Assembly: GCA_030018495.1 (NCBI GenBank)
Contig: JASEFS010000030.1
Location: 1-42,760 of the forward strand
From: Deltaproteobacteria bacterium
Lineage (GTDB): Bacteria > Desulfobacterota > Desulfobaccia > Desulfobaccales > 0-14-0-80-60-11
Length of the DNA stretch: 42,760 nt
Reading direction: 5' to 3'
Every line of letters begins with the position of its first letter. Within the stretch, counting starts at the first letter, position 1. The notes under the pieces were generated by a model. That model saw nothing but the letters and a program-made list of their open reading frames with translations, had not been told where the DNA came from and made no database searches. The position numbers and the translations under genes are program-made. Shown piece by piece: positions 830 to 38,406 of the stretch.

Positions 830-1221
830 AATTCGGAGCTCTTTCCCGCACTCGGGCTCACTATTTAGTTTTCAAAGAGCAAGTTCTTCCAATTAAAATT
901 ATAAGCATTAAACCGCCGCTGTCAAGAGGTATTTTTTCTCGTCTCAGTCTCCCTCTCCGCAGCGGCAAATGTCTTTATAACCGAAGCCCCCACCCCTGTC
1001 AAGCACCCCCCCTAAAAAAAGTTTTCAGTTTTCGGTTTCCAGTTTTCTGTATCCATTTTCCCCTTGCCGACAGCCCTTCCCTACCCTCAGATCAGGCCCC
1101 CCCACTGTTGATGACACCCCCTCTTCTCGAGGCCGGATAACCCCAGTCGCAATTACCCCTTCAAACTTAAAGGCCCTCTCCCCGGAATATTTTTTTCTGT
1201 TTCCTCTTGACATAGCAGCAT
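830..1221 (-). other. 16S rRNA leader region
   Basis: About 390 nt between the 16S 5' end and the candidate rRNA promoter. The part next to the 16S gene is AT-rich, as usual for rRNA leaders. I see no protein gene. Positions 1021-1062 hold six units of a 7-nt periodic array, listed separately. Pyrimidine-rich tracts occur on the plus strand. Confidence 0.5.
1021..1062. repeat. Heptamer-periodic array 1 (GTTTTCN)
   Basis: Six consecutive 7-nt units: GTTTTCA, GTTTTCG, GTTTCCA, GTTTTCT, GTATCCA, TTTTCCC. The units diverge but stay in register. It belongs to a set of seven such arrays in the window and lies within the presumed 16S leader. Confidence 0.7.
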
Positions 1222-1233
1222 TATCTATATAAC
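1207..1233 (+). promoter_or_regulatory. Candidate divergent promoter for the 52-aa protein gene
   Basis: A perfect -35 TTGACA (1207-1212) precedes TATAAC (1228-1233) with a short 15-nt spacer, or TAACTT (1230-1235) with a 17-nt spacer. It would drive the structured leader and the small gene at 1390. The sequence is physically shared with the minus-strand rRNA promoter. Confidence 0.35.
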
Positions 1234-1250
1234 TTTGCTATATATGGCAA
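1222..1250 (-). promoter_or_regulatory. Candidate 16S rRNA promoter
   Basis: On the minus strand a -35 TTGCCA (complement of 1245-1250) is followed after exactly 17 nt by a -10 TAGATA (complement of 1222-1227). Transcription would start near 1214 and give a leader of about 385 nt, a plausible length for an rRNA operon. It overlaps an oppositely directed promoter-like pair. Prediction from consensus only. Confidence 0.5.
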
Positions 1251-1269
1251 ACTCCTTTAGGTAAACGCG

Positions 1270-1389
1270 ATGCACCAATGCCCCGGGGTTGATGCGGCTG
1301 TCGCCGCGGCCCCCCTCAACCCCGGGCTTCAAGGCGTTAGGCGATTAACTCACCCGGTTTTTTCGGGAAAATTAAAGAAGGAGGACGCC
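1270..1389 (+). promoter_or_regulatory. Structured 5' leader, class unknown
   Basis: The leader folds into a nested structure. An outer stem of about 12 bp pairs 1280-1292 with 1316-1327 (one bulged C). Inside it is a 5-bp hairpin (GCGGC 1294-1298 with GCCGC 1303-1307, loop TGTC). A small hairpin follows (CCCG 1353-1356 with CGGG 1364-1367, T-rich loop), and then the ribosome binding site of the small gene. I could not match it to any riboswitch family I know, including c-di-GMP-I, fluoride, TPP and cobalamin. It may be a cis-regulator or simply a stable leader. Confidence 0.4.
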
Positions 1390-1548
1390 ATGTCCAGCCC
1401 CGGCTGCCTTGACGCCCCTGTTTCGGTGCCGGCCCAACGGCCGGCCTGGCCGCCCGCGGTCAAGCTGTTCCTGGCCTTCGTCGCGGCCCTGGCCCTGCTG
1501 TCGCCCGCCATCTTGGGCCTTTACTGGGAGATACTGCTGCCAAAGTAA
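1390..1548 (+). CDS. Small single-pass membrane protein, unknown function
   Basis: A 52-residue protein with a Pro-rich N-terminal ~20 residues and one hydrophobic helix at about 24-47 (KLFLAFVAALALLSPAILGL core). The ATG at 1390 is chosen because AAGGAGG lies at ideal distance just upstream. A longer in-frame version from 1270 would run through the structured leader and lacks a ribosome binding site. The strong ribosome binding site, promoter-like element and folded leader argue that it is real despite its size. I do not recognise the family. Confidence 0.6.
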   Translation: MSSPGCLDAPVSVPAQRPAWPPAVKLFLAFVAALALLSPAILGLYWEILLPK

Positions 1549-1663
1549 TGACCTGCCCTACCCCAACCCCGGCCCACTAACCCGCCGCCGGCCCCCGCCG
1601 ACGGTCAATCGAGTTGCGTCCTTTCTTTATCCTTATTACTCTGAGCGGCAACCATCCCTCTGC

Positions 1664-1694
1664 CAGCAGTCAGCAGTCAGCGGTCAGCAGCCAG
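1664..1694. repeat. Heptamer-periodic array 2 (CAGCAGT)
   Basis: Units CAGCAGT, CAGCAGT, CAGCGGT, CAGCAGC, then CAG. The 7-nt period is exact and the variation is confined to two positions. Confidence 0.8.
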
Positions 1695-1878
1695 AAAATA
1701 TCAGGGCGAGGCTTCCCCGCCAAACTTCCCGGCCAATAATCATAACCACATATAAGGCGAGCCTATAAGTGTCATCTGATGGGGGACAGTGGTCACAAGC
1801 AAGGAGCCAAGTCCCAAAACCCCCCTCTCCCTCGAGTGAGAAGGCCAAGCGGGAGCTTGGGAACGAGGTTTTTTGTAG

Positions 1879-1901
1879 GGGCGGGGTCGCCCCGCCCTTT
1901 T
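1879..1901. repeat. GC-rich palindromic hairpin, REP-like or terminator-like
   Basis: A perfect 8-bp stem (GGGCGGGG 1879-1886, CCCCGCCC 1890-1897), loop TCG, followed by TTTT. It could terminate plus-strand transcription. Its isolated position ~330 nt after the small gene and its composition also fit a dispersed REP-type element. Confidence 0.45.
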
Positions 1902-1987
1902 GCGGGCCGGGAAATCCGGACCCTATAAGGCCCGCGGCCTTCGTCAGACATTGACTCCAGCGTCAGGCGTCGGCGAACACCAAAACA

Positions 1988-2005
1988 CGCAGCCTAAAGG
2001 CTGCG
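1988..2005. repeat. Small perfect hairpin, REP-like
   Basis: CGCAGCCT (1988-1995) and AGGCTGCG (1998-2005) form a perfect 8-bp stem around a 2-nt centre. No U-tract follows, so a terminator is unlikely. Confidence 0.45.
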
Positions 2006-2253
2006 GCTACATTCAAATCCAGGTGCAACCATCGCCGCGATTCAACCCTTCTTGCGCGTTCTTCTCTGCGGCCCCTCCCATTTTCGCCCTTTCCCCTACT
2101 CCGTCCCCTTTAATCCCTGCTTCAGTCCATCCCCTTCCTTCCCCTTTCGCCTTTTCCCCCTTTCCCCTTTTCGCCCTCCCCCTCCTAAAGCATAATCCTC
2201 CTGTGATTGCAGATGCCTCCATTTAAACCCGGCTTGGCCTCTCTTCGCTTTTC

Positions 2254-2284
2254 ACCGAAAACCGAAAACTGAAAACCGAAAACC
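2254..2284. repeat. Heptamer-periodic array 3 (ACCGAAA)
   Basis: Units ACCGAAA, ACCGAAA, ACTGAAA, ACCGAAA, then ACC. It lies about 105 nt upstream of the acyl-CoA synthetase start. Confidence 0.8.
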
Positions 2285-2389
2285 TCTTTAAACCTCTTTC
2301 TCCTTTGGGGGCTTCCGCCCTTTGTGCTATGATTATAAGGATTTCGGTCTGTAATCACTCCAGGCCTTACCCCTTTGCGAGGAGGCGAC

Positions 2390-4420
2390 ATGGACACCCT
2401 GGCCAGCCTGGAACCCATCTTCCGGCCCAAGAGCGTGGCCGTGATCGGCGCATCCACCGCGCCCGGCAAACTCGGCCACGACATTTTGGCGAATCTCAAA
2501 AACGGCGGCTTCGCCGGCCCCATTTACCCCATCAACCCCAAGGCCGACGAAATTCTCGGGCTCAAGGTCTACAAGTCCATCGCCGAGACGCCGGCCCCGG
2601 CGGAGCTGGCCGTGGTGGTCATCCCCGCCAAGATCGTCACCCCGACCCTGGAGCAGTGCGCCGCGGCCGGGGTCAAGGCCGCCATCGTCATCACCGGCGG
2701 GTTCGCGGAAGCGGGCGAAGCCGGCGAGCGCCTCCAGGACGAAATGGCCCAGGTCATCAGGAAAACGGGCTTGAGGGTCGTGGGCCCCAACTGCCAGGGG
2801 GTCAACCACCCCCATCACCGCATGTGCGCGTCCTGGCCGCTCATCACCACCGCGGGCAAAATCGCCTTTGCATCGCAATCCGGCACGGTGGGCGCGGCGT
2901 TCATGGACCTGGCCGCGGCCGAAAAGCTGGGCGTGAGCTGCTTCGTCTCCCTGGGCAACCGGGTGGACGTGGACGAAGCCGAGGTTATCCAGTACTTCAA
3001 CGCGGACCCCGACACCAAGGTCATCGCCCTGTATCTGGAAGGCGTGAAGCGCCCCAGCTATTTTCTGGACGCGTTGTCCGACTGCCGAAAGCCCCTGGTG
3101 ATTCTCAAGGCGGGCCGCACCTTCCGGGGGAGCCTGGCGGCCACCTCCCACACCAAGTCCCTGGCCGGGGTGGACGCGGTGTACGAGGCGCTGTTCCGCA
3201 AGTACAAGGTCTACCGGGCCGATACTTTGGAGGAGCTTTTCGACTTTGCCAAGGCCCTGGCTTATCTCACGCCGCCCAAGGGCCGCAGCCTGATGATCAC
3301 CACCAGTTCCGGGGGCGCGGCCATTTTGGCCATTGATGAGGCGGAAAAAAACGGCCTGCTCACGCCGGAGCCCGGACCCAGCCTCAAGACGCGGCTCAGG
3401 GACATGCTCCCGGCCCACTGCGCGGTGGGCAACCCGGTGGACCTGACCGGCGATGTCATGAGCGACGCGGGCCTCTATAAAAAAGTGATGGACGAGACCC
3501 GGACGGAATTCGACTACCAGGTGGTGATCTTCGGCGACCCTATCCCCGGAGCCAGCGAGGTGGTCACGCCGGGCGCGGACGAATTGGTGATTTTCCTGGG
3601 GGGCGCCGAGGTGGAGCGGCAGGAGCGGGCCAAGCTTTATGACAAGGGCATCCCCGTTTTCCCCACGCCGGAGCGGGGCGTCAAGGCCCTGGCCCAGTTC
3701 TTCCGGCACAGCCCTGCCCCGGCGGGCCTGCGCCCGGAAGCGCCCATCCCGCCCGCGGCAGGCTTGAGGCTCCTGCCCGCGGCGGAGGCCGCAGAGATGA
3801 TCACCCGGGCCGGCATCCCGGCTGCGGCCGCGCCCCTGGCCGCCAATGCGGAGGAGGCCGTCCGCCTGGCGCAGGAATTCGGCTACCCCGTGGCCTTGAA
3901 AGTGGCCTCCCCGGATATCCCGCACAAAACCGACGTCGGCGGCGTACAACTTTATCTCATGGACGATGAAGAAGTGCGGCAGGCGTTTAAGGAGATCATG
4001 GCTTCGGTTCACCTGAGGGAGCGCATGGCCACGGTGGACGGCGTAACCGTTTCCCCCATGGCCAAGCCGGGCGGTCTGGAAGTCATCCTCGGCGTCATGA
4101 CTGATCCCCAGTACGGCCCTACGCTGATGTTCGGCCTGGGGGGCATTTATACGGAAATATACAAAGATGTGGGCTTTTGCATCCTGCCTGCCACTGACGA
4201 AGAGTTGGACCGGCTCATCAAAAGCATCAAGGGCTATCCGCTGCTCACCGGCTTCAGGGGCCAGCCCAAACGCGATGTCGAAGCATTAAAAGTGGCCATG
4301 AAAGCCCTGGCGACTTTTGCTCAAAAGCACCCGGAACTGGACCAGATAGAACTGAACCCTTTGCTGCTTTATGACAAGGGCCTGTTTGCCGTGGATGTCA
4401 GGATATTTTCGAGAATTTAA
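2390..4420 (+). CDS. ADP-forming acetyl/acyl-CoA synthetase, fused alpha-beta type
   Basis: A 676-aa member of the NDP-forming acyl-CoA synthetase family (acyl-CoA + ADP + Pi <-> acid + CoA + ATP). The N-terminal CoA-binding Rossmann domain has SVAVIGAS. A succinyl-CoA-synthetase-like domain follows with the SHT motif, and His254 fits the phospho-His position of the alpha half. The C-terminal ATP-grasp half carries IPHKTDVGGV (His512). Length is typical of the fused form. The ATG at 2390 is preferred over an upstream in-frame TTG (2375) because GAGGAGG (2379-2385) sits just before it. In anaerobes such enzymes conserve energy or activate acetate; the acid substrate cannot be read here. A long antisense open frame over it is a GC artefact. 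Confidence 0.9.
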   Translation: MDTLASLEPIFRPKSVAVIGASTAPGKLGHDILANLKNGGFAGPIYPINPKADEILGLKVYKSIAETPAPAELAVVVIPAKIVTPTLEQCAAAGVKAAIVITGGFAEAGEAGERLQDEMAQVIRKTGLRVVGPNCQGVNHPHHRMCASWPLITTAGKIAFASQSGTVGAAFMDLAAAEKLGVSCFVSLGNRVDVDEAEVIQYFNADPDTKVIALYLEGVKRPSYFLDALSDCRKPLVILKAGRTFRGSLAATSHTKSLAGVDAVYEALFRKYKVYRADTLEELFDFAKALAYLTPPKGRSLMITTSSGGAAILAIDEAEKNGLLTPEPGPSLKTRLRDMLPAHCAVGNPVDLTGDVMSDAGLYKKVMDETRTEFDYQVVIFGDPIPGASEVVTPGADELVIFLGGAEVERQERAKLYDKGIPVFPTPERGVKALAQFFRHSPAPAGLRPEAPIPPAAGLRLLPAAEAAEMITRAGIPAAAAPLAANAEEAVRLAQEFGYPVALKVASPDIPHKTDVGGVQLYLMDDEEVRQAFKEIMASVHLRERMATVDGVTVSPMAKPGGLEVILGVMTDPQYGPTLMFGLGGIYTEIYKDVGFCILPATDEELDRLIKSIKGYPLLTGFRGQPKRDVEALKVAMKALATFAQKHPELDQIELNPLLLYDKGLFAVDVRIFSRI

Positions 4421-4461
4421 GGGGCCGGGCCGATAAAGTCCCCCTAAAGCGGAGAAAGTCA

Positions 4462-5142
4462 ATGGCGTCTTTGCCCGAACATGCCGCGGAGAACGCTTTC
4501 TGGTTCCGGGATTGCTTTCTTATGACCATGCCCATCGGCCAGAAAGCCATCAACCTGCGCGAACTGCTTCATGCCATGTATGAGGTAAGTGATGCAGTGC
4601 TCTTTTATCATCTCTTTCAATACCGTCTGGCCATTATTGCGCCCGCAGTGGAGTATCCCAATGATTTCGCCCTGTGGGCCGCCAACGCCCTGCAGGACGC
4701 CAAGCTGGCGGAGAAGCTGAGTTCTTTCGACCCTTTTGATTACGAAAACCTGGCCCAAGTGCGGCAGGCGGTGATTGACCTGTTGGAGGAGTATCTCTGG
4801 GATTTACCTTATATTCCCTGGGCCCGGCCCGGCATGGAGTTCCATTTTTGCGAAGCCTCCACCGTGGTGTTTCGCTCGCAGATTTCCGCCGGCACCATGC
4901 TGGAATTTTATGAGGCCTTGAAAAAAGTCGGGTATGACTCCATTTACTATCACTTGTTCGAAGGCCGCTGGCGTCTGGGCGTCAGGGAAATGGATGATTT
5001 TTCCTATTGGATCGAAACCAATTTCGATATGCCGGAACTGGTGGCCGCGATCAGGAATATGGACATCTATTTTTATAGTTTAAGGGAGATTCACACTTCC
5101 CTGCTCAAGCTTTTGGAAGGCTGCCTGGAGGGGCCGCGGTGA
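4462..5142 (+). CDS. DUF5752 family protein
   Basis: A 226-aa cytosolic protein without signal or membrane segments, rich in aromatic and acidic residues. It opens with a FWFRDC motif followed by a helical region (ELLHAMYEVSDAVLFYHLFQ), which I recognise as the DUF5752 type. The biochemical role is unknown to me. Its last 4 nt overlap the start of the trehalose synthase gene, implying translational coupling and a role in the same pathway. GGAGA lies 5' of the ATG at 4462. Confidence 0.8.
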   Translation: MASLPEHAAENAFWFRDCFLMTMPIGQKAINLRELLHAMYEVSDAVLFYHLFQYRLAIIAPAVEYPNDFALWAANALQDAKLAEKLSSFDPFDYENLAQVRQAVIDLLEEYLWDLPYIPWARPGMEFHFCEASTVVFRSQISAGTMLEFYEALKKVGYDSIYYHLFEGRWRLGVREMDDFSYWIETNFDMPELVAAIRNMDIYFYSLREIHTSLLKLLEGCLEGPR

Positions 5143-6362
5143 TCACCCTGAGTGAATACGCGCCCATCGTGGGCCAGGAAGTTATCGACCAACTGGAGCG
5201 TCTGGCCGAAGGGCTGGGGCCGGCGCGGTTCGTGCATGTCAATTCCACCTATACCGGCGGCGGCGTGGCTGAAATATTACACCGGGCCGTACCTCTGCTG
5301 AACCAGTTGGGCCTGGAAACCGCCTGGCATGTTATCGAGGGCGATCCGTTCTTTTTTGAAACCACCAAGAGCATGCATAACGGTCTTCAGGGTTTCAAAG
5401 TCGAGCTGACCCGGAAGATGTGGGAGCACTATCTGGAGGTCAATCGCGCCAACGCCCGGAAGTTCGATTGGGAGGCCGACTTTGTGCTGATCCACGACCC
5501 CCAGCCTGCTTTTCTAATCAACGAACTGCGGCCGCGCGCCGCCCACTGGATCTGGCGCTGTCACATAGATGTTTCCCGGCCTCACTTGCCGGTATGGCGG
5601 CTATTGCGGGATATCGTGAATCAATATGACTCCTCGGTATTTTCCATGCCGCAATTTGCCCAAAATCTGCCTCATCCGCAATACATTATCCATCCTTCCA
5701 TCGACCCCTTGAGCGACAAAAACCGCGAATTGACCGATGCAGAAATTCAAGGGGTATTAAATCGATTGGGGATAGAGAAGGATAAGCCTATCATCATCCA
5801 GGTATCCCGGTTTGATTCCTTCAAGGATCCTCTGGGCGTGATTCAGGCCTTTCGCATGGTCCGGCGCCATACTCCCTGCCAGCTGATTCTGGCCGGTGGA
5901 AGAGCGACCGACGATCCGGAGGGGGACCGCATTTTGGCCGAAGTTCAGGAAGCGGCAGCAGGTGAACCGGATATTCACATTCTCATGTTGCCGCCGGATG
6001 CCCATTATGAAATCAACGCTTTGCAGCGGGCTTCGGACATCATTGTCCAAAAATCCACCCGGGAGGGTTTCGGGCTCACGGTCACTGAGGCAATGTGGAA
6101 GGGCAAGCCGGTCATCGGCGGCGCGGTGGGGGGGATTGTCATCCAGTTGCAAGATTACCAGACCGGTTTTTTGGTGCATTCTCCGGAAGGCTGCGCTTTC
6201 CGTATCCGCTATCTTCTCCACCGGCCGGAAATGGCCAGGCGTATGGGACAATTGGCCAAAGAATTTGTCCGTAACCACTTTCTTATTACCCGTCACCTGC
6301 GCGATTATCTCACCCTGCTGACCATAGTGAGAAGCCCTGAAGGCCGGGTTTTTGAATTTTAA
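5139..6362 (+). CDS. treT: Trehalose synthase TreT-like GT4 glycosyltransferase
   Basis: 407 aa, GT-B fold. TreT of Thermococcales forms trehalose from NDP-glucose plus glucose. The N-terminal domain has the TreT-type HVNSTYTGGGVAEILH motif, a WHVIEGD stretch and LIHDPQPA; the C-terminal domain has QVSRFDSFKDP and the GT4 E-x7-E signature in STREGFGLTVTEA. These match archaeal TreT closely from memory. The start is a GTG overlapping the previous stop by 4 nt, with a purine-rich GGAGG about 12 nt upstream. Likely product: trehalose as a compatible solute, though the specificity is inferred. Pairing with DUF5752 is the notable context. Confidence 0.85.
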   Translation: MITLSEYAPIVGQEVIDQLERLAEGLGPARFVHVNSTYTGGGVAEILHRAVPLLNQLGLETAWHVIEGDPFFFETTKSMHNGLQGFKVELTRKMWEHYLEVNRANARKFDWEADFVLIHDPQPAFLINELRPRAAHWIWRCHIDVSRPHLPVWRLLRDIVNQYDSSVFSMPQFAQNLPHPQYIIHPSIDPLSDKNRELTDAEIQGVLNRLGIEKDKPIIIQVSRFDSFKDPLGVIQAFRMVRRHTPCQLILAGGRATDDPEGDRILAEVQEAAAGEPDIHILMLPPDAHYEINALQRASDIIVQKSTREGFGLTVTEAMWKGKPVIGGAVGGIVIQLQDYQTGFLVHSPEGCAFRIRYLLHRPEMARRMGQLAKEFVRNHFLITRHLRDYLTLLTIVRSPEGRVFEF

Positions 6363-6395
6363 GCGCCACCCGGCCAACTAGAGGATCGGTTCCGA

Positions 6396-7634
6396 GTGAA
6401 GCCTTTGACATTTTTTCGCTTGCAGACCAGGGAAGAAGTTCTGGCCCATTACCGGAAGTTTTCGCCCCTAGGGCAGGAGGAAGTGCATCTCCTGGCGGCG
6501 GCCGGCCGAATCACCGCGGTGCCGATAGTTGTTCCGGAGGACGTGCCTCCCTTCCCCCGAGCTGCCATGGACGGTTATGCCGTGCGAGCCCAGGATACCT
6601 TCGGAGCCTCTCCCGGTCTCCCCCAATACCTGGAAATCAAGGGCGACGTGGCGATGGGGAGGGCCCCTACTCAAGAAGTGGGCCCGGGCGAAGCCCTGCG
6701 TTTGCCCACCGGCGGCATGCTGCCGTCAGGTGCGGATGCCGTGGTCATGGTGGAGTACACTGCCGAGCATCCCAACCTGACTTTGGAGGTGCGCCGGGCG
6801 GTAGCCCCCGGTGAAAATATTCTCCAGCCGGGGGAAGATGTGCGTCAAGGGGAGACGCTGCTAGAGGCGGGGCATCGCTTGAGGCCTCAGGACATCGGCC
6901 TGTTGGCCGCTTTGGGAATAATCAGCATCGCCGTCCACCGGCAGCCGTCAGTAGCAATAATTTCCAGCGGCGATGAGATTGTCCCGGTAAGTCAAACCCC
7001 TGGCCCGGCCCAGGTCAGGGATAGCAATGCTCATCTGGCCGCGGCCCAGGTAAAAGAGAACGGTGGTACACCACTTGTTTGGGGCATCATCCCTGATGAT
7101 CACCAGGCCCTGAAAAATGCCTTGGCGGGAGCCCTGCAGGAAGCTGATCTGATTCTTGTTTCCGGAGGAAGCTCCGTGGGGGCCCGTGATCTGACCATTC
7201 AGGCCATCGAGGATTTGCCGGGGGCTGACGTCCTGGTGCACGGCGTAGCCATCCGTCCCGGCAAGCCCACTATCCTGGCCGAAGTGGGCGGCAAACCTCT
7301 TTTGGGACTGCCGGGACATCCCGCTTCCGCCGCGGTGGTGATGCATGTGCTCGGGAGGCCCCTTATGGCGCGCCTGACGGGCCTTGCCGACCCCGGCGGC
7401 TGGGGCGGCACGGTCACGGCCAAGCTGTCCCGCAATCTGTCCGGAGCCTCCGGCCGGGAGGATTTTGTCCGGGTGAGCCTCCGCCAGGAAGGCGATACCC
7501 TCTGGGCAGATCCGATTCTTGGACCGTCCGGGCTGCTTTCTCCTTTGGTAAAAAGCCACGGCTTGGTCATGATTCCATTGGGCGTGGAAGGCCTGAACCG
7601 GGATGAAACCGTAATGGTGCAACTCTTCGAATGA
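6396..7634 (+). CDS. moeA: Molybdopterin molybdenumtransferase MoeA
   Basis: 412 aa, the usual MoeA length. It inserts molybdate into adenylylated molybdopterin, the last common step of Mo cofactor synthesis. Motifs in order: PRAAMDGYAV near residue 50, RLPTGGMLPSGADAVVMVE near 105-120, ISSGDE, VSGGSSVGARD near 255, and GLPGHPASA near 305. GTG start at 6396. The C-terminal domain IV (LSRNLSGASGREDFVRV) is complete. It is 33 nt after TreT and its stop overlaps the next start, so it is probably part of the same transcript. Anaerobes need it for formate dehydrogenases and related enzymes. Confidence 0.94.
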   Translation: MKPLTFFRLQTREEVLAHYRKFSPLGQEEVHLLAAAGRITAVPIVVPEDVPPFPRAAMDGYAVRAQDTFGASPGLPQYLEIKGDVAMGRAPTQEVGPGEALRLPTGGMLPSGADAVVMVEYTAEHPNLTLEVRRAVAPGENILQPGEDVRQGETLLEAGHRLRPQDIGLLAALGIISIAVHRQPSVAIISSGDEIVPVSQTPGPAQVRDSNAHLAAAQVKENGGTPLVWGIIPDDHQALKNALAGALQEADLILVSGGSSVGARDLTIQAIEDLPGADVLVHGVAIRPGKPTILAEVGGKPLLGLPGHPASAAVVMHVLGRPLMARLTGLADPGGWGGTVTAKLSRNLSGASGREDFVRVSLRQEGDTLWADPILGPSGLLSPLVKSHGLVMIPLGVEGLNRDETVMVQLFE

Positions 7635-8251: not shown

Positions 8252-8302
8252 GGATGAGAAACAGAACGGCTTATGAGATGGCGGAGGAAAGTGCAGGGGG
8301 GG

Positions 8303-25701: not shown

Positions 25702-26742
25702 ATGAGGTCGGGGGGGGAAGAGGCATGTACCTGCCTTTTCCTCTTACGACAGGTGGGAGCCTCAGACATTAACCGAAGCAGCCGCCACGGGTGCAGCATT
25801 AAACTTGTTTCACTTTTTATTGGCCTGATCTTTTTGAGTCCTCAAGGCGTGATGGCTTGCGGGAATTCAATGGACAAAGAGGAAATCCGCTCCAGGCTGA
25901 AAAATTATGTTGAGCATCTGAGCGTCACTTTGGGGGAGCGCTCCGTTTACCGTCCTCAAGGGCTTAAGGACGCAGAAGACTATGTTTACCGGTGCTTTGA
26001 GAATATTGGTTATCAGCCCCGGCGCCAGAAGCTGGTCTCCATGCGCCAGCAGGTGGCCAACATTATTGCCGGGGAACAGAGTCCTCAGGGCTATTACCTC
26101 CTGGGAGCACATTACGATACGGTAACCGGCAGTCCCGGCGCGGACGACAACGCCAGCGGCGTGGCCGTGCTCCTGGAGGCGGCCCGTCTCGCCCGGCAAG
26201 TGAACCTCGCGAAACCCTGGGTTTTTGTCGGTTTTACCACGGAGGAGCCGCCGGTTTTTGGCACCCCTTATATGGGCAGCAACGTTTACGCCCGTCAGGC
26301 GAAAAAGCAGGGCCACAAAATTTTGGGTATGCTGTGTCTGGAGAGCGTCGGCTATTACTCCCAGGAACCTGGCAGTCAGCATCTGCCCTTGCCCTTGAAG
26401 TACATGGGCTATCCCACCACCGGCAATTTCATCGGCCTGATCAGCGACCGCCGATCCAAGCCCCTTATGCAGTCATTGGCTAAGTCTCTGGAAAACGGCA
26501 GCCGCCTGCCGGTGGCCACTCTGGCCGTCCCCCTGGGAGGCTACCTGCTGCCGGAAGTGCGCTTAAGCGACCACGCCAATTTCTGGGACCAGGGCTATCC
26601 CGCGGTTATGCTCACCGACACCGCTTTCATGCGCAACCCCCACTATCACACCGGCAGTGACCGGCTGGAAACCCTGGACCTGGATGCCATGGCGGAGCTG
26701 ACCCTGGGGCTGGTCCATTTCATGCAAAACGCGGAGAAGTAG
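25702..26742 (+). CDS. Exported M28-family metallopeptidase
   Basis: 346 aa. Zn-peptidase fold with HYDTVTGSPGADDNASGV (metal-binding His/Asp), FTTEEPP (catalytic and metal Glu), and HYHTGSD near the end (last metal His). A hydrophobic signal-like segment (IKLVSLFIGLIFLSPQG) starts about 35 residues in, which is unusually late. The ATG at 25702 is the first in frame after the preceding gene; an in-frame TTG (25693) overlaps it. The true start could be a non-ATG codon nearer the hydrophobic segment. Likely a secreted or periplasmic aminopeptidase. Confidence 0.8.
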   Translation: MRSGGEEACTCLFLLRQVGASDINRSSRHGCSIKLVSLFIGLIFLSPQGVMACGNSMDKEEIRSRLKNYVEHLSVTLGERSVYRPQGLKDAEDYVYRCFENIGYQPRRQKLVSMRQQVANIIAGEQSPQGYYLLGAHYDTVTGSPGADDNASGVAVLLEAARLARQVNLAKPWVFVGFTTEEPPVFGTPYMGSNVYARQAKKQGHKILGMLCLESVGYYSQEPGSQHLPLPLKYMGYPTTGNFIGLISDRRSKPLMQSLAKSLENGSRLPVATLAVPLGGYLLPEVRLSDHANFWDQGYPAVMLTDTAFMRNPHYHTGSDRLETLDLDAMAELTLGLVHFMQNAEK

Positions 26743-26744
26743 GA

Positions 26745-26800
26745 TTTCGGTTTTCCGTTTTCCGTTTACTGCTCACTGCTAACTGTTTTTCTGTTTCCTG
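26745..26800. repeat. Heptamer-periodic array 4 (TTTCCGT / TNACTGC)
   Basis: Eight units in register: TTTCGGT, TTTCCGT, TTTCCGT, TTACTGC, TCACTGC, TAACTGT, TTTTCTG, TTTCCTG. It starts 3 nt after the M28 stop. It joins two unit types seen separately at other sites. Confidence 0.8.
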
Positions 26801-31279: not shown

Positions 31280-31948
31280 ATGAAAAGATGGTTCTTTTTC
31301 ACGGGTCTTGTCGCCGTTCTGGCTTTGCTGGCGCCCCTCCAAGTCAGCCATGCGGCGGAAAAAAGTGCCAAGCATTACCTCGGCCTGGGCGCCGAGCACA
31401 TGCAGGCAGGCCGCTATCCCCAGGCGATAGAGGAACTTAGTCGGGCCATCCAGCTGGACCCTGATTATGATGAGGCTTATCGACAACGGGGCAATGTGTA
31501 CTTCCGGCAGGGAGACCACGACAAGGCCATTGCCGATTACAGCGAGGCTTTGCGCCTCGCCCCCAAAAATGCCAGCAATTATGCCAACCGGGCGCTGGTC
31601 TATTTGGAGCAAGGAAAACTGGATGAGGCTCTGACCGACTTCACGGCCGCCATAAACCTGGACCCCAAATATGCCAAAGGCTACAGCCGGCGGGGGCGCG
31701 TCTATTATCAAAAAGGCGAATACGATAAAGCCATTGCCGATTGCAATAAGGCTCTGGAACTGGACCCCAAGCTGGCCGAGGCCTATTTTTACAAAGCCCT
31801 GGCCTGCGAACAGACCGACCGCATCCCTGAAGCCCTGGAATCATTTAAACATTTCGTCGAATATGCTCCACCCGAATACGAAGCTCATACCAAAATCATA
31901 CGCGACAAACTGAAGCAGTACGGGGAAACGCCCCAAAAGACAAATTAA
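31280..31948 (+). CDS. Exported TPR-repeat protein
   Basis: 222 aa. Signal peptide (FFFTGLVAVLALLAPLQVSHAA) then about five tetratricopeptide repeats with the A-Y-x-x-R-G and A-I-x-D consensus (for example KAIADYSEALRLAPKNASNY). Periplasmic protein-interaction scaffold; partners unknown. GGTAAGGAG upstream of the ATG. Confidence 0.85.
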   Translation: MKRWFFFTGLVAVLALLAPLQVSHAAEKSAKHYLGLGAEHMQAGRYPQAIEELSRAIQLDPDYDEAYRQRGNVYFRQGDHDKAIADYSEALRLAPKNASNYANRALVYLEQGKLDEALTDFTAAINLDPKYAKGYSRRGRVYYQKGEYDKAIADCNKALELDPKLAEAYFYKALACEQTDRIPEALESFKHFVEYAPPEYEAHTKIIRDKLKQYGETPQKTN

Positions 31949-32140
31949 CCAGCCCAGGACAAAGCTCTGTTCCATTGCTTTAAAGCTTAAACTTTCCCTA
32001 CCATTTTTATATATAGACAATTAATCCTCCATGGCATAAAATTAAATGCAGCAAATTTGCCAGGTTAGGTTGCAGTCCCTTCCGGTAGAACCTAGATTTT
32101 ATGATTAAGGCTGTAGGAAATTCCTTCAGGGGAGTCAGGC

Positions 32141-33460
32141 ATGGACCCTCACCGTCGGCTGTTTTCTGCACTGCTGGTCTTCATCATCCTAAGTATTTTT
32201 TTCTGGAGTCGGCCTCTGCCGGTCTCAGGGGCCGAACCCGGCCTGCCCGCCGATCTTCAGGCTTTGATCCAGGAAGCTCTGAAGGCCAATCCCGAAATCA
32301 AGGAACGGGCCCAGATCAAGACTGCCTCCGAGGAAAGCGTCAAGCCCGCCGGGGCCCTGGACGATCCCATGTTCTCCTTTAATATTTTGAATCTCGCCGC
32401 CGATACCTTCGACTTCGCCCAGGAGGAAATGACCAATAAGCAAGTGGCCATTTCCCAGAAGTTTCCCTTTCCCGGCAAGCGCCGCCTGCGCTCAGAAGTG
32501 GCCGAGGAGCAGGCCCGAGCCGACAGCTTTGTGTTTGCAGACAAAAGGAATGAAATCAGGACCAAGGTGATCCAGGGCTACTGGGGCCTTTCGTTGGCTT
32601 ACGCCGGTGCCGATATCACCGAGAGAAACAAACAGTTCTGGGAACAGGTGGTGAAGGTGGCGGAAACCGTCTATGGGGTGGGGCGCGGCCAGCAGGCGGA
32701 CGTGCTCCAGGCTCAGGTGGAGCTCGGCAATTACCTGGACCGTCTGCTCCAGTGGCGCCAGCGCCAGGACTCCATCCGGGCGGATTTGAATGCTTTGCGC
32801 TCCAAACCCCAGAAAACCGATATTCCCAGGCCGGAACCTATGAAGCCCAGAGGCTTCGGCCTCAAGCTGGAAGATTTATTGGCCCAGGCCGAAGGCCAAC
32901 CCCGCCTCAAGGCCCTGCAAGCCCTGATAGCCAAGCAGAATACCGCGGTGGAGCTGGCCCGCAAGGATTATTATCCCGACTTCAATGTCGGTCTGGCCTA
33001 CGGCTTCCGGGAAAAAAGCCCCATCGGACGGGAGCGGGCCGATTTTTTCACCGCCCTGATGAGCGTCAACGTACCACTCTGGTGGGGTTCCAAGCTGAAC
33101 CCCAGGCTGCGGGAACAGCAGGCCAAAAAGGCTGCGGCCCAGGAGGCCTATCAGGCCCTTCTCGACCGCCTGGCCGCGGCGGTCAAAGACCGCTATGCCA
33201 AGCTGGAGCGCCTCTCTCAGCAAATAGCCCTGTACGATCAGGGCATCATTCCCCAGGCCCGCCAGGCCGCCGAGGCTTCGCTGGCCTCCTACCAGGTGGG
33301 CCTCCTGGATTTTTCCCGGTTGTATCAGAACCAGATCGCGGCGTACAATGCCGAGCTCCAGTTGCAGCAATATCTCAAGGAATTTGAAGAAAACTGGGCC
33401 GAACTGGAATGGCTGGTGGGCGCCGAGCTTCCTCGCCGGCCCGGAGGAAATCGCCGATGA
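32141..33460 (+). CDS. cusC: TolC-family outer-membrane efflux protein, CusC-like
   Basis: 439 aa. Signal peptide (to about residue 30), then two OEP domains with the alternating helix pattern of TolC trimers. KFPFPGKRRLRSEVAEEQA is typical of metal-efflux TolC homologues. First gene of the copper/silver efflux set; its stop overlaps the adaptor start (ATGA 33457-33460). AGGGGAG lies upstream of the ATG. Confidence 0.87.
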   Translation: MDPHRRLFSALLVFIILSIFFWSRPLPVSGAEPGLPADLQALIQEALKANPEIKERAQIKTASEESVKPAGALDDPMFSFNILNLAADTFDFAQEEMTNKQVAISQKFPFPGKRRLRSEVAEEQARADSFVFADKRNEIRTKVIQGYWGLSLAYAGADITERNKQFWEQVVKVAETVYGVGRGQQADVLQAQVELGNYLDRLLQWRQRQDSIRADLNALRSKPQKTDIPRPEPMKPRGFGLKLEDLLAQAEGQPRLKALQALIAKQNTAVELARKDYYPDFNVGLAYGFREKSPIGRERADFFTALMSVNVPLWWGSKLNPRLREQQAKKAAAQEAYQALLDRLAAAVKDRYAKLERLSQQIALYDQGIIPQARQAAEASLASYQVGLLDFSRLYQNQIAAYNAELQLQQYLKEFEENWAELEWLVGAELPRRPGGNRR

Positions 33461-35079
33461 GTCCTGCGCCCCGACGTTATCTCCTGACAGGCTTGGTCCT
33501 GGGTGTGCTTTTGGTCCTGGCAACCTATGGCGTCTTGTACCTGGCAGGCTACCATATCATGCGCCATGAGCCTTCGGCTCCGCCCCCGTCCGAAAAGGAG
33601 AAAGCGCCCCTGTGCTACGTCTCCCCCACCAATCCGGACTATATCCGCTTCGAGCCCGGCAAGGACCCCCAAGGCCAGCAACTGGTGCCGGTCTATCCTA
33701 CGCAACCGCCGTCTCCGGGGGCGCCGCCGCCTGAAAGAGCCATAAAATACTGGCAGTCTCCCATGGACCCCAAATATATCCGCGACAAGCCGGGAAAAGA
33801 CTACATGGGCCACGACCTGATACCGGTTTACGGCGAAGTGGGCCCGCCCACCCCCAAACCTGGAGTTCCTGTAAAAGAGAGGAAAATCAAGTACTGGGTC
33901 TCACCCATGGACCCCGGTTATGTGCGGGACAAACCCGGCAAGGCCCCCTGCGGCATGGACTTGGTGCCGGTATACGAAGAGGAGGGCGAGGCCAGGGCCG
34001 TGGAGGGCACCATTGCGGTGGACCCCAATATCCTCCAGTCCATGGGAGTGCGAACCGCCAAGGTGGAGCGGCGGTCTCTGGCCCACACCATTCGGGCCGT
34101 GGGCAAGGTGCTGTATGACGAACGCCAGTTCTCGGTGGTCAATACCAAAATCAACGGCTGGGTTGAACGCCTTTATGTAAAGGCCACGGGGGACCCCATC
34201 CGCAAAGGCCAGTCCCTCTTGAGCATCTACAGCCCGGAGCTGGTCGCCACCCAGCAGGAGTATCTCCTGGCTTTGAAAAACCGTCGGAATATGGAAAAAA
34301 GCCCCTTTCCTGAGCTGAAAGAAGGGGCCCAGCGGCTGGTGGAAGCCGCGCGCCAGCGCCTGATTTATTGGGACATTCCCGCCGCACAGGTGGCGGCCCT
34401 GGAAAATACCGGGACCATCAGCAAAACCCTCACCCTGGCGTCGCCGGTAAACGGCATCATCACCAAGCGCATGGTGACCGAAGGTCAGTATGTCAAAGCC
34501 GGCATGCCTTTGCTGGAAGTGGCCGACCTGTCCACCGTCTGGGTGGAGGCCGACATTTATGAATATGAGCTTCCCTGGGTGAAGGTGGGCCAGCACGCCC
34601 AAATGACCTTGCAATACCTGCCGGGAGAGACCTTTCACGGCAACATCCATTATATATACCCCTACCTGAGCGGCGCCACCCGCACCGCCAAGGTGCGTCT
34701 GGCCTTCGCCAATCCGAAGCTCAGGCTCAAACCGGACATGTTCGCGCAGGTGGAGATTGCCTCTCCTCAGGCAGAACCCGCGGTGGCCGTGCCCGCTGAA
34801 GCCATTCTGGATACCGGCGAAAAGCAGCACGTGTTCGTGGCCTTGGGGCAAGGCCGCTTCGAGCCCAGGGAGGTCAAAGTGGGGCGCTTCGGCGACGACC
34901 GCTATCGGGAAATTCTCGCAGGCCTTGAGCCCGGCGAGGAAGTGGTGACTTCAGCCCAATTCCTCCTGGATTCCGAATCCCGCTTCCGGGAGGCCATTTC
35001 GCTCATGTTGGAGGGCAAAGAAAAAGAAGGGGGAAAGCCCGAGGGCCCGCCCGCGGCCATGCCAGAGCATAAACATTAG
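33457..35079 (+). CDS. cusB: CusB-type periplasmic adaptor with three heavy-metal-binding domains
   Basis: 540 aa. One N-terminal membrane anchor, then three tandem HMBD-type repeats at about residues 50-80, 92-122 and 145-175 (each ending G-x-x-L-x-PVY). Only the third has the Cys-Gly-Met ligand trio (PCGMDLVPVY); all three read PMDP or PTNP instead of PMHP. Then barrel-sandwich hybrid and beta-barrel domains (GIITKRMVTEGQYVKAG, DLSTVWVEADIYEYELPWV). Start ATG 33457 with GGAGG upstream is preferred to an in-frame start at 33409. Confidence 0.9.
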   Translation: MSPAPRRYLLTGLVLGVLLVLATYGVLYLAGYHIMRHEPSAPPPSEKEKAPLCYVSPTNPDYIRFEPGKDPQGQQLVPVYPTQPPSPGAPPPERAIKYWQSPMDPKYIRDKPGKDYMGHDLIPVYGEVGPPTPKPGVPVKERKIKYWVSPMDPGYVRDKPGKAPCGMDLVPVYEEEGEARAVEGTIAVDPNILQSMGVRTAKVERRSLAHTIRAVGKVLYDERQFSVVNTKINGWVERLYVKATGDPIRKGQSLLSIYSPELVATQQEYLLALKNRRNMEKSPFPELKEGAQRLVEAARQRLIYWDIPAAQVAALENTGTISKTLTLASPVNGIITKRMVTEGQYVKAGMPLLEVADLSTVWVEADIYEYELPWVKVGQHAQMTLQYLPGETFHGNIHYIYPYLSGATRTAKVRLAFANPKLRLKPDMFAQVEIASPQAEPAVAVPAEAILDTGEKQHVFVALGQGRFEPREVKVGRFGDDRYREILAGLEPGEEVVTSAQFLLDSESRFREAISLMLEGKEKEGGKPEGPPAAMPEHKH

Positions 35080-35114
35080 TGGTCGGTGGCCTGTTGAAAC
35101 CTGGTCCAACGCTC

Positions 35115-35156
35115 ACTGCTTACTGCTCACTGGAAACTGATTACTGATTACTGACC
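35115..35156. repeat. Heptamer-periodic array 5 (ACTGNNN)
   Basis: Six units: ACTGCTT, ACTGCTC, ACTGGAA, ACTGATT, ACTGATT, ACTGACC. The array fills the end of the cusB-cusA gap and ends one base before the cusA ATG, replacing any Shine-Dalgarno sequence. Confidence 0.85.
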
Positions 35157-35157
35157 T

Positions 35158-38100
35158 ATGATCGCCCGATTCATCGAAGCCTGCGTCCGCCACCGCGTCC
35201 TGGTGCTCCTCATCTGGTCATTGATCACCGCGTGGGGCCTCTATGCCGCGTACAACCTGCCGGTGGACGCCATCCCCGACCTCTCTGACGTCCAGGTCAT
35301 CATCTCCACGGATTATGTGGGCCAGGCCCCCCAGGTGGTGGAGGACCAGGTCACTTACCCCCTGGCCACCGCCATGCTGGCCGTGCCCTACGCCAAAGTC
35401 GTGCGGGGCTATTCCATGTTCGGCCTGTCCCTGGTGTACATCATTTTTGAGGACGGCACCGACATCTATTGGGCCCGCTCCCGGGTGCTGGAGCAGCTCA
35501 ATTTTGTCCGGGGCAAGCTCCCTGCCGGGGTGAACCCGGCGCTGGGCCCCGATGCCACCGGGGTGGGCTGGGTCTTCCAGTACGTGGTGGAGGACCCCAC
35601 CGGCCGGCACGACCTGGCGCAACTGCGCAGCATCCAGGACTGGTACCTGCGCTATCAGCTGCAAACGGTCCCCGGCGTGTCGGAAGTGGCCTCTGTGGGC
35701 GGCTTTGTCAAGCAGTACCAGGTGGTAGTCGACCCCAACAAGCTGGCTTCCTACAACCTCCCCATCTCCCGGGTGAAGACGGCTATCCAGCGGTCCAACG
35801 CCGATGTGGGCGGGAGGGTCATCGAACGGGCCGAAACCGAATATATGGTGCGGGGCCTGGGCTATATCAAAAATCTGGATGACCTGGAAAATATCGTGGT
35901 GGGCACGGATGGCCGGGGCACTCCAATTCTCTTAAAGGATGTGGCCCTGGTGCGCCTGGGACCGGAACTCCGGCGGGGCCTGGCTGAAAGCAACGGCGAG
36001 GGCGAGGTGGTGGGCGGCATCGTGGTCATGCGCTTCGGCGAAAACGCCCGGGCCGTTATTAAAAAGGTGCAGCAGAAACTGGAGGAACTCAAGCCGGGTC
36101 TGCCGCCGGGAGTGCGCATTGTCACCGCGTATGACCGCTCCGGCCTGATCGAGAGGGCCATCAACACCCTGCAGACCGCCATCATCGAAGAAATCGCCAT
36201 CGTCGCCCTGATCACCATTCTTTTCCTCCTGCATGTGCGCAGCGCCTTTGTGGCCATCATCGGTCTGCCTCTGGGGGTGCTGGTTTCCTTTATTTTGCAA
36301 TATCAATTCAATATCACCGCCAACATTTTGAGTCTGGCCGGCATCGCCATCGCCATCGGCGACATGGTGGACGCCAGCGTGGTCATGGTGGAGGACGCCC
36401 ACAAGAAAATCGAGTCCGCCCCGCCGGATGCGGATCGCGCCCCGTATATCCTGGAGGCCGCCAAAGAAGTGGGGCCGTCTCTCTTTTTTGCCCTCCTGGT
36501 GATAACAGTGTCGTTTTTGCCCATCTTTGCCCTGACGGGCGAGAGCGGACGCTTGTTCAAGCCCCTGGCTTATACCAAGACCTTCGCCATGGCCGGCGCC
36601 TCCATCCTGGCTATTACCCTGATCCCCATTCTCATGCTCTTCTTCATCCGGGGGAGAATACCCAAAGAGGAAAGAAATCCTCTCTCCCGCTTCACCCATG
36701 CCCTCTACCACCCGGCCTTGAAGCTGGTGCTGCGCTTCCCGGTAATCACCATTCTGCTGGCCTTGATCCTGATGGCGGTTACGATATATCCCTTCATGAA
36801 GCTGGGTTCCGAATTCATGCCGCCTCTTGACGAGGGGGATCTCCTTTACATGCCCACCACCATGCCGGGTATTTCCGTCACCAAGGCCAAGGAGCTTCTC
36901 CAGCAGACGGACCGCATCATCCGCACCTTCCCGGAGGTGGACTACGTCTTCGGCAAGGTGGGCCGGGCTGAAACCGCCACCGATCCAGCGCCCTTGAGTA
37001 TGATCGAGACCACCATCCGCCTCAAGGACCGGTCCCAATGGCGGCCGGGCATGACCACGGAAAAGCTCATTCAGGAGCTGGACCGGGCCGTGCGCTTCCC
37101 GGGGCTGGCCAATTCCTGGGGCTACCCCATCAAAATCAGGATCGACATGCTCTCCACCGGGTTCAAGACTCCGGTGGGGCTCAAGTTCCTGGGTCCGGAC
37201 CTGGAGGTCCTCAACCGTCTGGCCACTGAGGCCGAAGCCATCCTGAAAGAAGTGCCCGGCACGGCCAGCGCCTTTGCCGAACGGGTCACGGGCGGCTATT
37301 ACCTGGACTTCGACATCAACCGCAAGGAAGCAGCCCGCTACGGCCTCACCGTTGGGGATGTCCAGGATGTCATCGCCACGGCCTTGGGCGGCATGACGGT
37401 CACCACCACGGTGGAAGGCCTGGCCCGCTATCCCGTCAATGTGCGGTATTTCCAGGATTACCGTCTGGATATCCCGGCCCTGAAGCGCATTCTCGTCCCC
37501 ACGCCCACGGGCGCCCAGATCCCTATGGAGCAGGTAGCCAGAATCAATATCAGCCAGGGGCCGCCCATGATCAAAAGCGAAGACGCCCGGCCCACCGCCT
37601 GGGTCTTCGTGGACCTGGACGACATCGACGTGGGCACTTACATCCAGCAGGCCAAGGAGGCCATCGCGGCCAAACTCAAGCTTCCCGCCGGCTACACCCT
37701 GCTGTGGAGCGGCCAGTACGAATACATGGAGAGGGCCCGGCAAAAGCTCCAGGTGGTCATCCCCATCACCCTTGTCCTGGTCTTTTTGCTCCTTTATCTC
37801 AGCACCGGCTCCATCACCAAGGTATTCATTATTTTGTTGGCCGTGCCCTTCTCCCTCATCGGCGCCATCTGGCTCTTGTATCTTCTGGATTACAACTTGA
37901 GCGTCGGGGTGATCGTGGGCATCATCGCGTTGGCGGGTCTGGACGCGGAGACCGGCGCGATCATGCTCCTATACCTCGATCTTTCTTATGATGAGCGCAA
38001 AGCCCAGGGGCGTCTCACCACCCGGCAGGAGTTGCAGGAAGCCGTCACCCACGGCGCAGTCATGCGCCTGCGCCCCAAGCTCATGACCATCCTGGCCAAC

Positions 38101-38271
38101 ATCTTCGGGCTGCTGCCGGTCATGTGGGCCACGGGCACCGGCGCTGAAGTGGCCAAACGCATCGCCGCCCCCATGGTGGGCGGCGTCACCACCTCATTTC
38201 TCTTGGAACTCCTGGTTTACCCTGCCATTTACTACCTGTGGAAGTGGCACCGGGAAGTGAAGAAGCTCTAA
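35158..38271 (+). CDS. cusA: CusA/CzcA-family RND transporter, Cu(I)/Ag(I) type
   Basis: 1037 aa, complete HME-RND pump with 12 helices. Met565, Met615 and Met664 (LLYMPTT, APLSMIETT, IRIDMLSTG) have the same spacing (50, 49) as the metal-binding M573/M623/M672 of E. coli CusA, arguing for monovalent copper/silver rather than Zn/Co/Cd. Proton-relay acids match (Asp405 in GDMVDASVVM; Glu931 in LAGLDAETG; Lys974 in RPKLM). The start abuts a heptamer array with no Shine-Dalgarno; the 3' end (AAG CTC TAA) runs into another array. Confidence 0.93.
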   Translation: MIARFIEACVRHRVLVLLIWSLITAWGLYAAYNLPVDAIPDLSDVQVIISTDYVGQAPQVVEDQVTYPLATAMLAVPYAKVVRGYSMFGLSLVYIIFEDGTDIYWARSRVLEQLNFVRGKLPAGVNPALGPDATGVGWVFQYVVEDPTGRHDLAQLRSIQDWYLRYQLQTVPGVSEVASVGGFVKQYQVVVDPNKLASYNLPISRVKTAIQRSNADVGGRVIERAETEYMVRGLGYIKNLDDLENIVVGTDGRGTPILLKDVALVRLGPELRRGLAESNGEGEVVGGIVVMRFGENARAVIKKVQQKLEELKPGLPPGVRIVTAYDRSGLIERAINTLQTAIIEEIAIVALITILFLLHVRSAFVAIIGLPLGVLVSFILQYQFNITANILSLAGIAIAIGDMVDASVVMVEDAHKKIESAPPDADRAPYILEAAKEVGPSLFFALLVITVSFLPIFALTGESGRLFKPLAYTKTFAMAGASILAITLIPILMLFFIRGRIPKEERNPLSRFTHALYHPALKLVLRFPVITILLALILMAVTIYPFMKLGSEFMPPLDEGDLLYMPTTMPGISVTKAKELLQQTDRIIRTFPEVDYVFGKVGRAETATDPAPLSMIETTIRLKDRSQWRPGMTTEKLIQELDRAVRFPGLANSWGYPIKIRIDMLSTGFKTPVGLKFLGPDLEVLNRLATEAEAILKEVPGTASAFAERVTGGYYLDFDINRKEAARYGLTVGDVQDVIATALGGMTVTTTVEGLARYPVNVRYFQDYRLDIPALKRILVPTPTGAQIPMEQVARINISQGPPMIKSEDARPTAWVFVDLDDIDVGTYIQQAKEAIAAKLKLPAGYTLLWSGQYEYMERARQKLQVVIPITLVLVFLLLYLSTGSITKVFIILLAVPFSLIGAIWLLYLLDYNLSVGVIVGIIALAGLDAETGAIMLLYLDLSYDERKAQGRLTTRQELQEAVTHGAVMRLRPKLMTILANIFGLLPVMWATGTGAEVAKRIAAPMVGGVTTSFLLELLVYPAIYYLWKWHREVKKL

Positions 38272-38287
38272 GCTTTAAGCTTTAAGC
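38263..38287. repeat. Heptamer-periodic array 6 (AAGCTTT)
   Basis: AAGCTCT, AAGCTTT, AAGCTTT, then AAGC. The first unit contains the last codons of cusA, and the stop codon lies across the unit boundary. Confidence 0.75.
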
Positions 38288-38357
38288 CGTTACGACAAGT
38301 TCTTTAGGCGGCCTCGAGGAGTCACCCTAAGGCAGACCCGGTTTTTGGAAGATTTGA

Positions 38358-38406
38358 AGCTTATAGCTTAAAGCCTACAGCCTAAGGCTTATAGCTTATA
38401 GCTTAA
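38358..38406. repeat. Heptamer-periodic array 7 (AGCTTAT)
   Basis: Seven units in register: AGCTTAT, AGCTTAA, AGCCTAC, AGCCTAA, GGCTTAT, AGCTTAT, AGCTTAA. It ends five bases before the ATG of the TauE-type gene, again with no Shine-Dalgarno sequence. Confidence 0.85.

Follow-up and report, generated by a model that had tools for sequence, protein, structure and literature searches.

Intergenic heptamer arrays of a deltaproteobacterium as probable arms and leftovers of small inverted-repeat elements of the rRNA intervening-sequence (IVS/S23) kind

Degenerate tandem heptamers are known from heterocystous cyanobacteria as the short tandemly repeated repetitive (STRR) sequences, for which, to our knowledge, no mobile element has been proposed. 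In the REP/RAYT and REPIN systems (REP, repetitive extragenic palindromic sequence), a few gene-bearing copies are accompanied by hundreds of gene-less hairpin derivatives, and RAYT is a transposase that acts on a fixed palindrome. Here we analyse a stretch of 42,760 nucleotides (the window) from a Deltaproteobacteria bacterium of the Desulfobaccales (contig JASEFS010000030.1 of assembly GCA_030018495.1), in which an initial annotation, made from the letters alone, had noted seven intergenic arrays of heptamers with differing units, together with the genome it belongs to (the source genome) and genomes of relatives and other phyla. The new observation is that the S23/IVP gene (PF05635), known from rRNA intervening sequences (IVS), often lies between inverted heptamer arrays; the arrays are probably the arms, or leftover single arms, of small mobile elements of the IVS/S23 kind that end in inverted repeats. 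Among the open-access papers listed in our literature searches, none joins heptamer arrays with IVS/S23p elements.

Among the tandem repeats between prokaryotic genes, heptamers are reported to be the commonest kind, and no explanation is given in the part of the source cited here (PMC6344855). The initial annotation, which knew of no described counterpart in deltaproteobacteria, missed the heptamers reported from Xanthomonas and Nostoc (Rehm et al. 2015, PMC4692102) and from Beggiatoaceae (MacGregor 2015, PMC4679880), with Mori et al. cited as well. The Xanthomonas/Nostoc repeats (GGGAATC and GGGGA(C/T)T) resemble the present ones in their period of 7, their intergenic location, the G-rich strand pointing away from the nearest gene end and, in Xanthomonas, the occurrence of convergent inverted pairs (70 and 75 cases); they differ in that the authors, in the passages cited, as a rule saw no link to mobile elements and studied quadruplex formation, and in that most units here lack runs of at least three G (PMC4692102). 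The TAACTGA repeats of Beggiatoaceae are likewise heptamers just upstream of starts, some of them before ribosomal protein genes, but they represent a single unit in the genome and were read as a possible translational control site, and no paired element is described in the corresponding part of that paper (PMC4679880). Among the closest described systems is the IVS of Coxiella 23S rRNA, which is called selfish and is cut from the RNA by RNase III (PMC4990558). Like the elements described below, it comprises one S23p gene in 428 nt (about 430 nt here) with terminal inverted repeats that form an RNA stem, and direct heptameric repeats, in numbers that depend on the strain, are likewise present at its 5' end. 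As far as the cited portion of that paper allows a comparison, the elements examined here differ in being located between protein genes, outside rRNA genes, in their often longer heptamer arms and in apparently having many gene-less derivatives; because of their location, they are a variant of the IVS/S23p kind rather than strict members of it.

All seven arrays were recovered at the coordinates initially given (1021-1062, 1664-1694, 2254-2284, 26745-26800, 35115-35156, 38263-38287 and 38358-38406), with a self-match of 0.69-0.94 at an offset of 7 nt versus 0.04-0.52 at offsets of 6 and 8, and Tandem Repeats Finder reported period 7 at 7/7 sites. The survey was extended to 442,760 bases of the source genome, i.e. 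the window and 20 stretches of 20 kb (L031-L050) picked by position on contigs, a slightly biased sample because the contigs chosen were known to hold one repeat. Genes were called by a simple codon-bias caller written for the analysis, and start codons are therefore uncertain. Among the 91 intergenic tandem arrays of period 4-16 in this sample, 74 have period 7, while the remainder have periods 8 (5 arrays), 14 (7), 15 (2) and 16 (3); one Markov-1 shuffle of the same bases yielded no array of any period. The excess of period 7, whose absence would have spoken against the initial annotation, is thus clear, and the offset self-match, the sample counts and the empty shuffle together rule out a chance origin. 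Extrapolation gives about 600 period-7 arrays per 3.46-Mb source genome, and one 15-mer of one unit family occurs there 131 times, compared to 0 times when read backwards. The arrays share the features of STRR-type repeats (degenerate tandem heptamers, intergenic, at many sites per genome), and the differing unit families (AAAACCG with its variants, AAAAACC, AAAGCTT/AAGCTAT, ACTGCTG, ACCACTG, ACCCCTG and AACCTTG) rule out a single repeat family.

Two long array spacers of the source genome encode an S23/IVP four-helix bundle protein, an identification borne out for both by the PF05635 positions and for one by additional checks. PF05635 was matched in 45 of the 59 genomes searched (8 matches in the source genome), and none of the 14 control genomes had a match. 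Among the seven listed of the eight source matches, five have arrays on both sides and two on one side. In the 30 best-scoring IVP loci from the source and other genomes, period-7 arrays occur on both sides in 20 and on at least one side in 25, and an array of period 7-9 is present on at least one side in 29. A multi-phylum set, comprising the best 80 of at least 585 relatives, exhibited a period-7 array upstream in 37 loci, downstream in 36, on both sides in 28 and on either side in 45, compared to 9 of 139 control windows shifted by 1500 nt; judging by the record titles, the loci with both arms come from Chloroflexi, Acidobacteria, Proteobacteria, Bacteroidetes, Ignavibacteriae, Treponema, Clostridia and Planctomycetales. 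When periods 7-9 are admitted, 34 of the 80 loci have arrays on both sides, and both arms have the same period in 33 of these (27 at 7, five at 8, one at 9), hence 7 is the usual step but not the sole one. The arms of the 34 loci match in inverted orientation (0.72; chance 0.50, maximum of 200 shuffles 0.557) far better than in direct orientation (0.48), with four pairs below 0.5 (L139, L147, L182 and L191). Complete elements, in the source genome as well as in others, combine an S23p/IVP coding region (PF05635, TIGR02436) with terminal inverted repeats that close a stem; within the window, only the 38263/38358 pair shows such repeats.

Sites with and without the element were found on conjugative plasmids of Nostocales, where heptamer arrays of like architecture flank S23 genes; this bears out the likeness to cyanobacterial repeats that the initial annotation had drawn. 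A junction in the type IV secretion system (T4SS) operon is 13 nt long in four plasmids (Aulosira, N. carneum, N. linckia and Microchaete); in T. variabilis, whose plasmid is about 97% identical to these, it spans 441 nt. The 428 nt added consist of an array, an IVP gene and an inverted array, with GTAAT (a 5-bp duplication) on both sides, the left copy of which contains the upstream stop codon. Arrays and gene are thus jointly present or absent, as one unit, at this clean site. At the same junction, Scytonema has the full form (its array length differs from that of T. variabilis by 14 nt), Nostoc C052 (91% identity) a truncated element and Brasilonema (81%) a hairpin of about 80 nt without an open reading frame (ORF), built from the unit of the T. 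variabilis element. The Nostoc C052 plasmid carries two more insertions of 243 and 210 nt, absent from five relatives and devoid of annotated genes, with short arrays that share their unit with the element at the T4SS junction. Gene-less forms sharing a unit also occur as insertions, and the arms of elements evolve together. Empty counterparts were found also for a second Aulosira element and for elements of two Nostoc plasmids, and the cas10/cmr3 junction, 12 nt long in PCC 7002, holds an IVP gene and measures 428 nt in PCC 7003, although only one arm of the PCC 7003 element passes the array score. As a separate observation, IVP genes occur inside CRISPR operons of cyanobacterial plasmids, i.e. 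between cas10 and cmr3 in PCC 7003 (L225, 1466-1893) and between cas6 and cas4 in Anabaena sp. 90 (L226, 1126-1901), the latter element having a heptamer array of about 260 nt.

A similar picture emerges from ribosomal operons, of which the whole or a part was compared between the source genome, where they carry many arrays, and 20 relatives. At several orthologous junctions the spacing is 8-20 nt in array-free species versus 73-156 nt in species with array pairs, the filled junction being laid out as array, spacer and inverted array; for instance, the rplV/rpsC junction measures 9 nt in one and 106 nt in another species of the same genus. At rpmC/rpsQ and rplW/rplB, two genomes of one genus (G007 and G012) have quite different units at one and the same junction. 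With post-stop arrays defined by a script rule as those in the first 40 nt and pre-start arrays as those within 60 nt, 26 of the 27 post-stop arrays in the 21 genomes start 0-11 nt after the stop codon, and in 23 of the 30 pre-start arrays the distance from the array end to the start is 4-22 nt, in many cases enough for a ribosome-binding site. Two junctions deserve separate mention: rplF/rpsE of G008 (L059) has another small ORF of 81 aa between the arms, with no NCBIfam match, and other cargo may thus exist, while rpsE/rpmD of G012 (L063) has, by eye, hairpin arms of period 8, TTTGCGTC / TTGGCGTC.

Placement at gene ends is also seen in the source-genome sample: a gene end lies within 10 nt for 41 of the 65 arrays with both neighbours called (9.8 expected under uniform placement). 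Read outward from the gene, the strand is G/T-rich in 31 of the 35 arrays at most 15 nt from a stop and in 9 of 14 at starts, and the 26 neighbouring array pairs comprise 12 convergent, 13 tandem, one undecided and no divergent pair. The G-C polarity is followed by 21 of the 27 post-stop arms at ribosomal junctions and by the majority of IVP arms (G exceeds C in 36 of 51 upstream arms, C exceeds G in 40 of 48 downstream arms). A strict polarity rule was dropped, as pre-start arms disobey it and the sign differs between elements of the 30-locus set. The initial annotation was right in that differing units with one period, and with one placement, point to a common process; what it missed is the placement at gene ends, the polarity, the inverted pairing and the element to which the arrays appear to belong.

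The number of IVP matches is correlated with the number of arrays of one unit family in the 22 genomes of the family (Spearman 0.75, p 6e-5; this and all further correlations ignore kinship), in both families together (0.56, p 0.0016, 29 genomes) and in all 59 genomes (0.39, p 0.0025), and likewise with the share of array-bearing ribosomal junctions (0.62, p 0.004, 20 genomes). In other families of the phylum, IVP-free genomes have one period-7 array in 355.5 kb and genomes with at least three IVP matches have 17 in 313.4 kb, based on 10 of the 11 IVP-free genomes (G050 was omitted as fragmented) and all 10 of the others, with two stretches per genome, many of them below 20 kb; arrays consisting of N were discarded, and the IVP-free base total includes the 1,900 bases of L111, mostly N. 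Two tested units that are shared with the IVP flanks of a genome are specific to that genome: the unit of G004 occurs 56 times there (flanks included), 4 times in a congener and 0 times in 16 others, and that of G056 occurs 43 times there, twice in one other genome and 0 times in 16. A third unit, TTAGCTG, provided a weak test (8 in G002, three of them beside its IVP gene, 4 in G014 and one each in G009 and G016). The control with reversed patterns was non-empty in G009 (74), G003 (12) and a few others, because those genomes use the reversed string, too, as a heptamer unit.

The IVP gene is maintained as a protein, being under purifying selection in two informative pairs (dN/dS 0.10 and 0.16) and in a nearly saturated one (0.05). 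In NCBIfam, IVP matched no transposase or recombinase family and gave only a weak match to the Avd model (E 0.0025, 18 bits, cut-off 80); a diversity-generating retroelement was rejected, given the weakness of this match and the lack of an annotated reverse transcriptase within the plasmid elements examined. In the predicted RNA fold of two whole IVP elements, the arms form a closing stem (z -3.2 and -5.2). As an aside, a one-contig genome contains at least seven IVP matches in 21 kb (G024:C1:3065483-3086641), most of them with internal stops and four with equal scores.

In the probable scheme outlined at the beginning, a complete element of about 430 nt comprises a left array reading inward, more often with the G-richer strand, one S23/IVP gene and a right array that is an inverted copy of the left one. 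It would insert at gene junctions, beside the stop codon or between the stop and the next ribosome-binding site, so that the host genes survive. Loss of the gene would give ORF-less forms of about 80-240 nt and loss of one side lone arrays, while units would drift, expand and be copied between the two arms, whereby each genome would acquire its own set of units. All seven window arrays would then be gene-less forms derived from such elements. Slippage and copying within the hairpin presumably keep the arms alike and the period fixed, the IVP protein may help the elements to move, and the RNA stem of the element could be cut by RNase III by analogy with the rRNA IVS. If the arrays are the ends of elements, an origin would be offered for a repeat pattern of many bacteria that has lacked an explanation, the origins of rRNA intervening sequences and of STRR-like repeats would be united, and the widespread annotation "four helix bundle protein" would acquire a meaning; with the heptamers linked to a single small gene family, the question of their origin would become testable.

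Several results weigh against this scheme. In the window no IVP gene was found, and none of the seven source matches listed of the eight lies on its contig (C38); with eight IVP matches against the extrapolated 600 or so arrays of the source genome, the origin of most arrays is one that we infer, and hundreds of arrays are tied to few IVP genes by likeness and not by site-by-site descent. The window junctions, including the 38263/38358 pair, fold no better than shuffles (z -1.1, -0.6 and -0.7), and their folding was accordingly discarded as structural proof. The 26 neighbouring pairs of the source genome have an inverted similarity of 0.565 (random mean 0.493), which lies below the maximum of 200 random sets (0.589), and pre-start arms at ribosomal junctions exhibit no G-C polarity (15/30). 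In the multi-phylum set, both flanks are free of period-7 arrays in 35 of the 80 loci, though six of these have arrays of period 8 or 9 on both sides and some are near a contig end. The duplication is clean at one of the five full/empty IVP sites, the others having lost up to about 45 nt or being too diverged, and none was seen at the two Nostoc C052 insertions. Long junctions occur also in an array-free relative (G001: infA/rpmJ 82 nt, rpmJ/rpsM 163 nt). One IVP pair has a dN/dS of 0.86, with four differences only, and three pairs are saturated. In the neighbouring family f2, the correlation of IVP and array counts is absent or reversed (Spearman -0.52, p 0.23, 7 genomes): the counted unit is missing from G022 (5 IVP matches) and G024 (20), while G023 has no IVP and 3 matches; moreover, G022 and G027 carry IVP genes and 0 arrays in 27 ribosomal junctions each. 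The IVP count thus fails in f2 as a predictor of one given unit.

Tentatively, the S23/IVP ring might be the sole protein of a distinct class of mobile elements without a recognisable transposase, whose ends are, in place of a recognised sequence, arrays made during insertion and which would be the origin of the prokaryotic intergenic period-7 signal. Repeated extension of the 3' ends at a break could perhaps produce the arrays; a telomere-like orientation, with the G-richer strand pointing 5'-3' away from the neighbouring genes, is seen in the better cases. If arrays are made during insertion, each insertion can carry its own unit.

A variant compatible with IVS/S23 elements as the source of the arrays, possible but doubtful, is that the element is real and is moved wholly by a transposase or reverse transcriptase acting in trans, with IVP a passenger that has another job. 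It would account for the lack of a transposase or recombinase family among the IVP matches and for the 5-bp duplication at the T. variabilis site, such target duplications being the product of many transposases. On the other hand, IVP is the sole annotated gene between the arms in the nine plasmid loci examined and is maintained under purifying selection, the duplications are inconstant and the ends lack an invariant sequence for a single transposase to recognise. An ordinary cut-and-paste transposon or miniature inverted-repeat transposable element was rejected, since the unit and even the period vary, only IVP is annotated between the arms of the plasmid elements examined, and a target-site duplication was found at 1/5 IVP sites and 0/2 Nostoc C052 insertions. 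The comparison with REP/RAYT leads to a similar distinction: few gene-bearing and many gene-less copies are common to both, but here the arm sequence varies and IVP has no transposase match.

Simple slippage during replication that favours steps of 7, set e.g. by a polymerase footprint, an idea cited in the relevant passage of Rehm et al. (PMC4692102), would require no mobile element, with IVP merely tolerating such places. It agrees with the degeneracy of the arrays, their genome-specific units, the 14-nt difference in array length between T. variabilis and Scytonema and the failure of the IVP/array correlation in f2, yet it is improbable, as it leaves unexplained the placement after stop codons, the inverted pairing around IVP with matched period and unit, the same architecture with periods 8 and 9, the scarcity of arrays in IVP-free genomes and the finding that empty sites lack arrays and gene together; the insertion of whole array pairs between strains counters it as a complete explanation. 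Somewhat less credit still is given to the arrays as selected cis-elements (terminators, translation-initiation or RNA-stability signals, G-quadruplexes) kept where they work. Their position directly after stops or, in 23 of 30 pre-start cases, 4-22 nt before starts would suit such a role, and translational control and quadruplexes have been proposed in the parts of the papers by MacGregor (PMC4679880) and Rehm (PMC4692102), respectively, that are cited here; however, sister species lack arrays or have quite different units at essential ribosomal-operon junctions, folding of the window junctions is no better than that of shuffles, and the published sets, in the same parts, show no preferred gene class (PMC4679880, PMC4692102). 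The least probable alternative, that IVP elements own no arrays and insert preferentially into existing inverted pairs, fits the great excess of arrays over IVP genes and the finding of IVP-flanking units among the common ones of a genome, but the cleanest empty site is a 13-nt, array-free junction in four plasmids of about 97% identity, and the 12-nt empty cas10/cmr3 junction is array-free as well.

With the derivation from IVS/S23 elements as the preferred explanation, the window arrays can be described individually. A partial 16S rRNA gene (1-829, minus strand; Rfam RF00177, E 1e-253) occupies the edge of the window, and three of the seven are found in the 1.5 kb on its upstream side, which are poor in genes. 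The first, a lone array of GTTTTCA/GTTTTCG (1021..1062, G/T-rich on the plus strand), lies between the 16S rRNA gene and a gene at 2390; the second, also lone, consists of CAGCAGT (1664..1694, plus strand), a unit that also flanks an IVP gene of the source genome on contig C30; the third, GGTTTTC (2254..2284, G/T-rich on the minus strand), precedes the gene at 2390 by 105 nt, and its unit flanks an IVP gene of the source genome too (locus L077). As initially claimed, two unit types are joined at 26745: a left-type arm of GTTTTCC (26742..26767, plus strand) directly follows a stop codon ending at 26742 (the array from 26745 begins 2 nt after the stop) and abuts an array of a different, ACTGCTC-type unit in right-arm orientation (26768..26800, minus strand), which drifts at its end. 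A right-type arm of ACTGCTT/ACTGATT (35115..35156, minus strand) ends 1 nt before the ATG of a CusA-like gene at 35158. The last two arrays, initially counted as separate, are the two inverted arms of one 140-nt junction (inverted similarity 0.83, direct 0.65): the left arm, AAGCTTT (38263..38287, plus strand), overlaps the 3' end and stop codon of the CusA-like gene, and the right arm, AAGCTAT on the minus strand (38358..38406), ends about 6 nt before a gene start at 38412. The description of the arrays as being in perfect register holds for their cores, while the final units of 1021-1062 and 26745-26800 drift; they are not all gene-free, as 38263-38287 begins within the CusA-like gene, in the final codons ahead of its stop at 38271, and the arrays at 26745 and 35115-35156 abut genes.

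Two other kinds of intergenic repeats were observed. Short palindromic repeats starting with GTAG share spaces with heptamer arrays, by eye, at 1875-1897 of the window, in L048 from 4096 and in L039 from 5164; their likeness to GTAG-tagged REPs is one of name only. A 45-nt unit, not of the heptamer kind, is repeated 2.1 times at 98% identity between two genes of the window (39220-39314).

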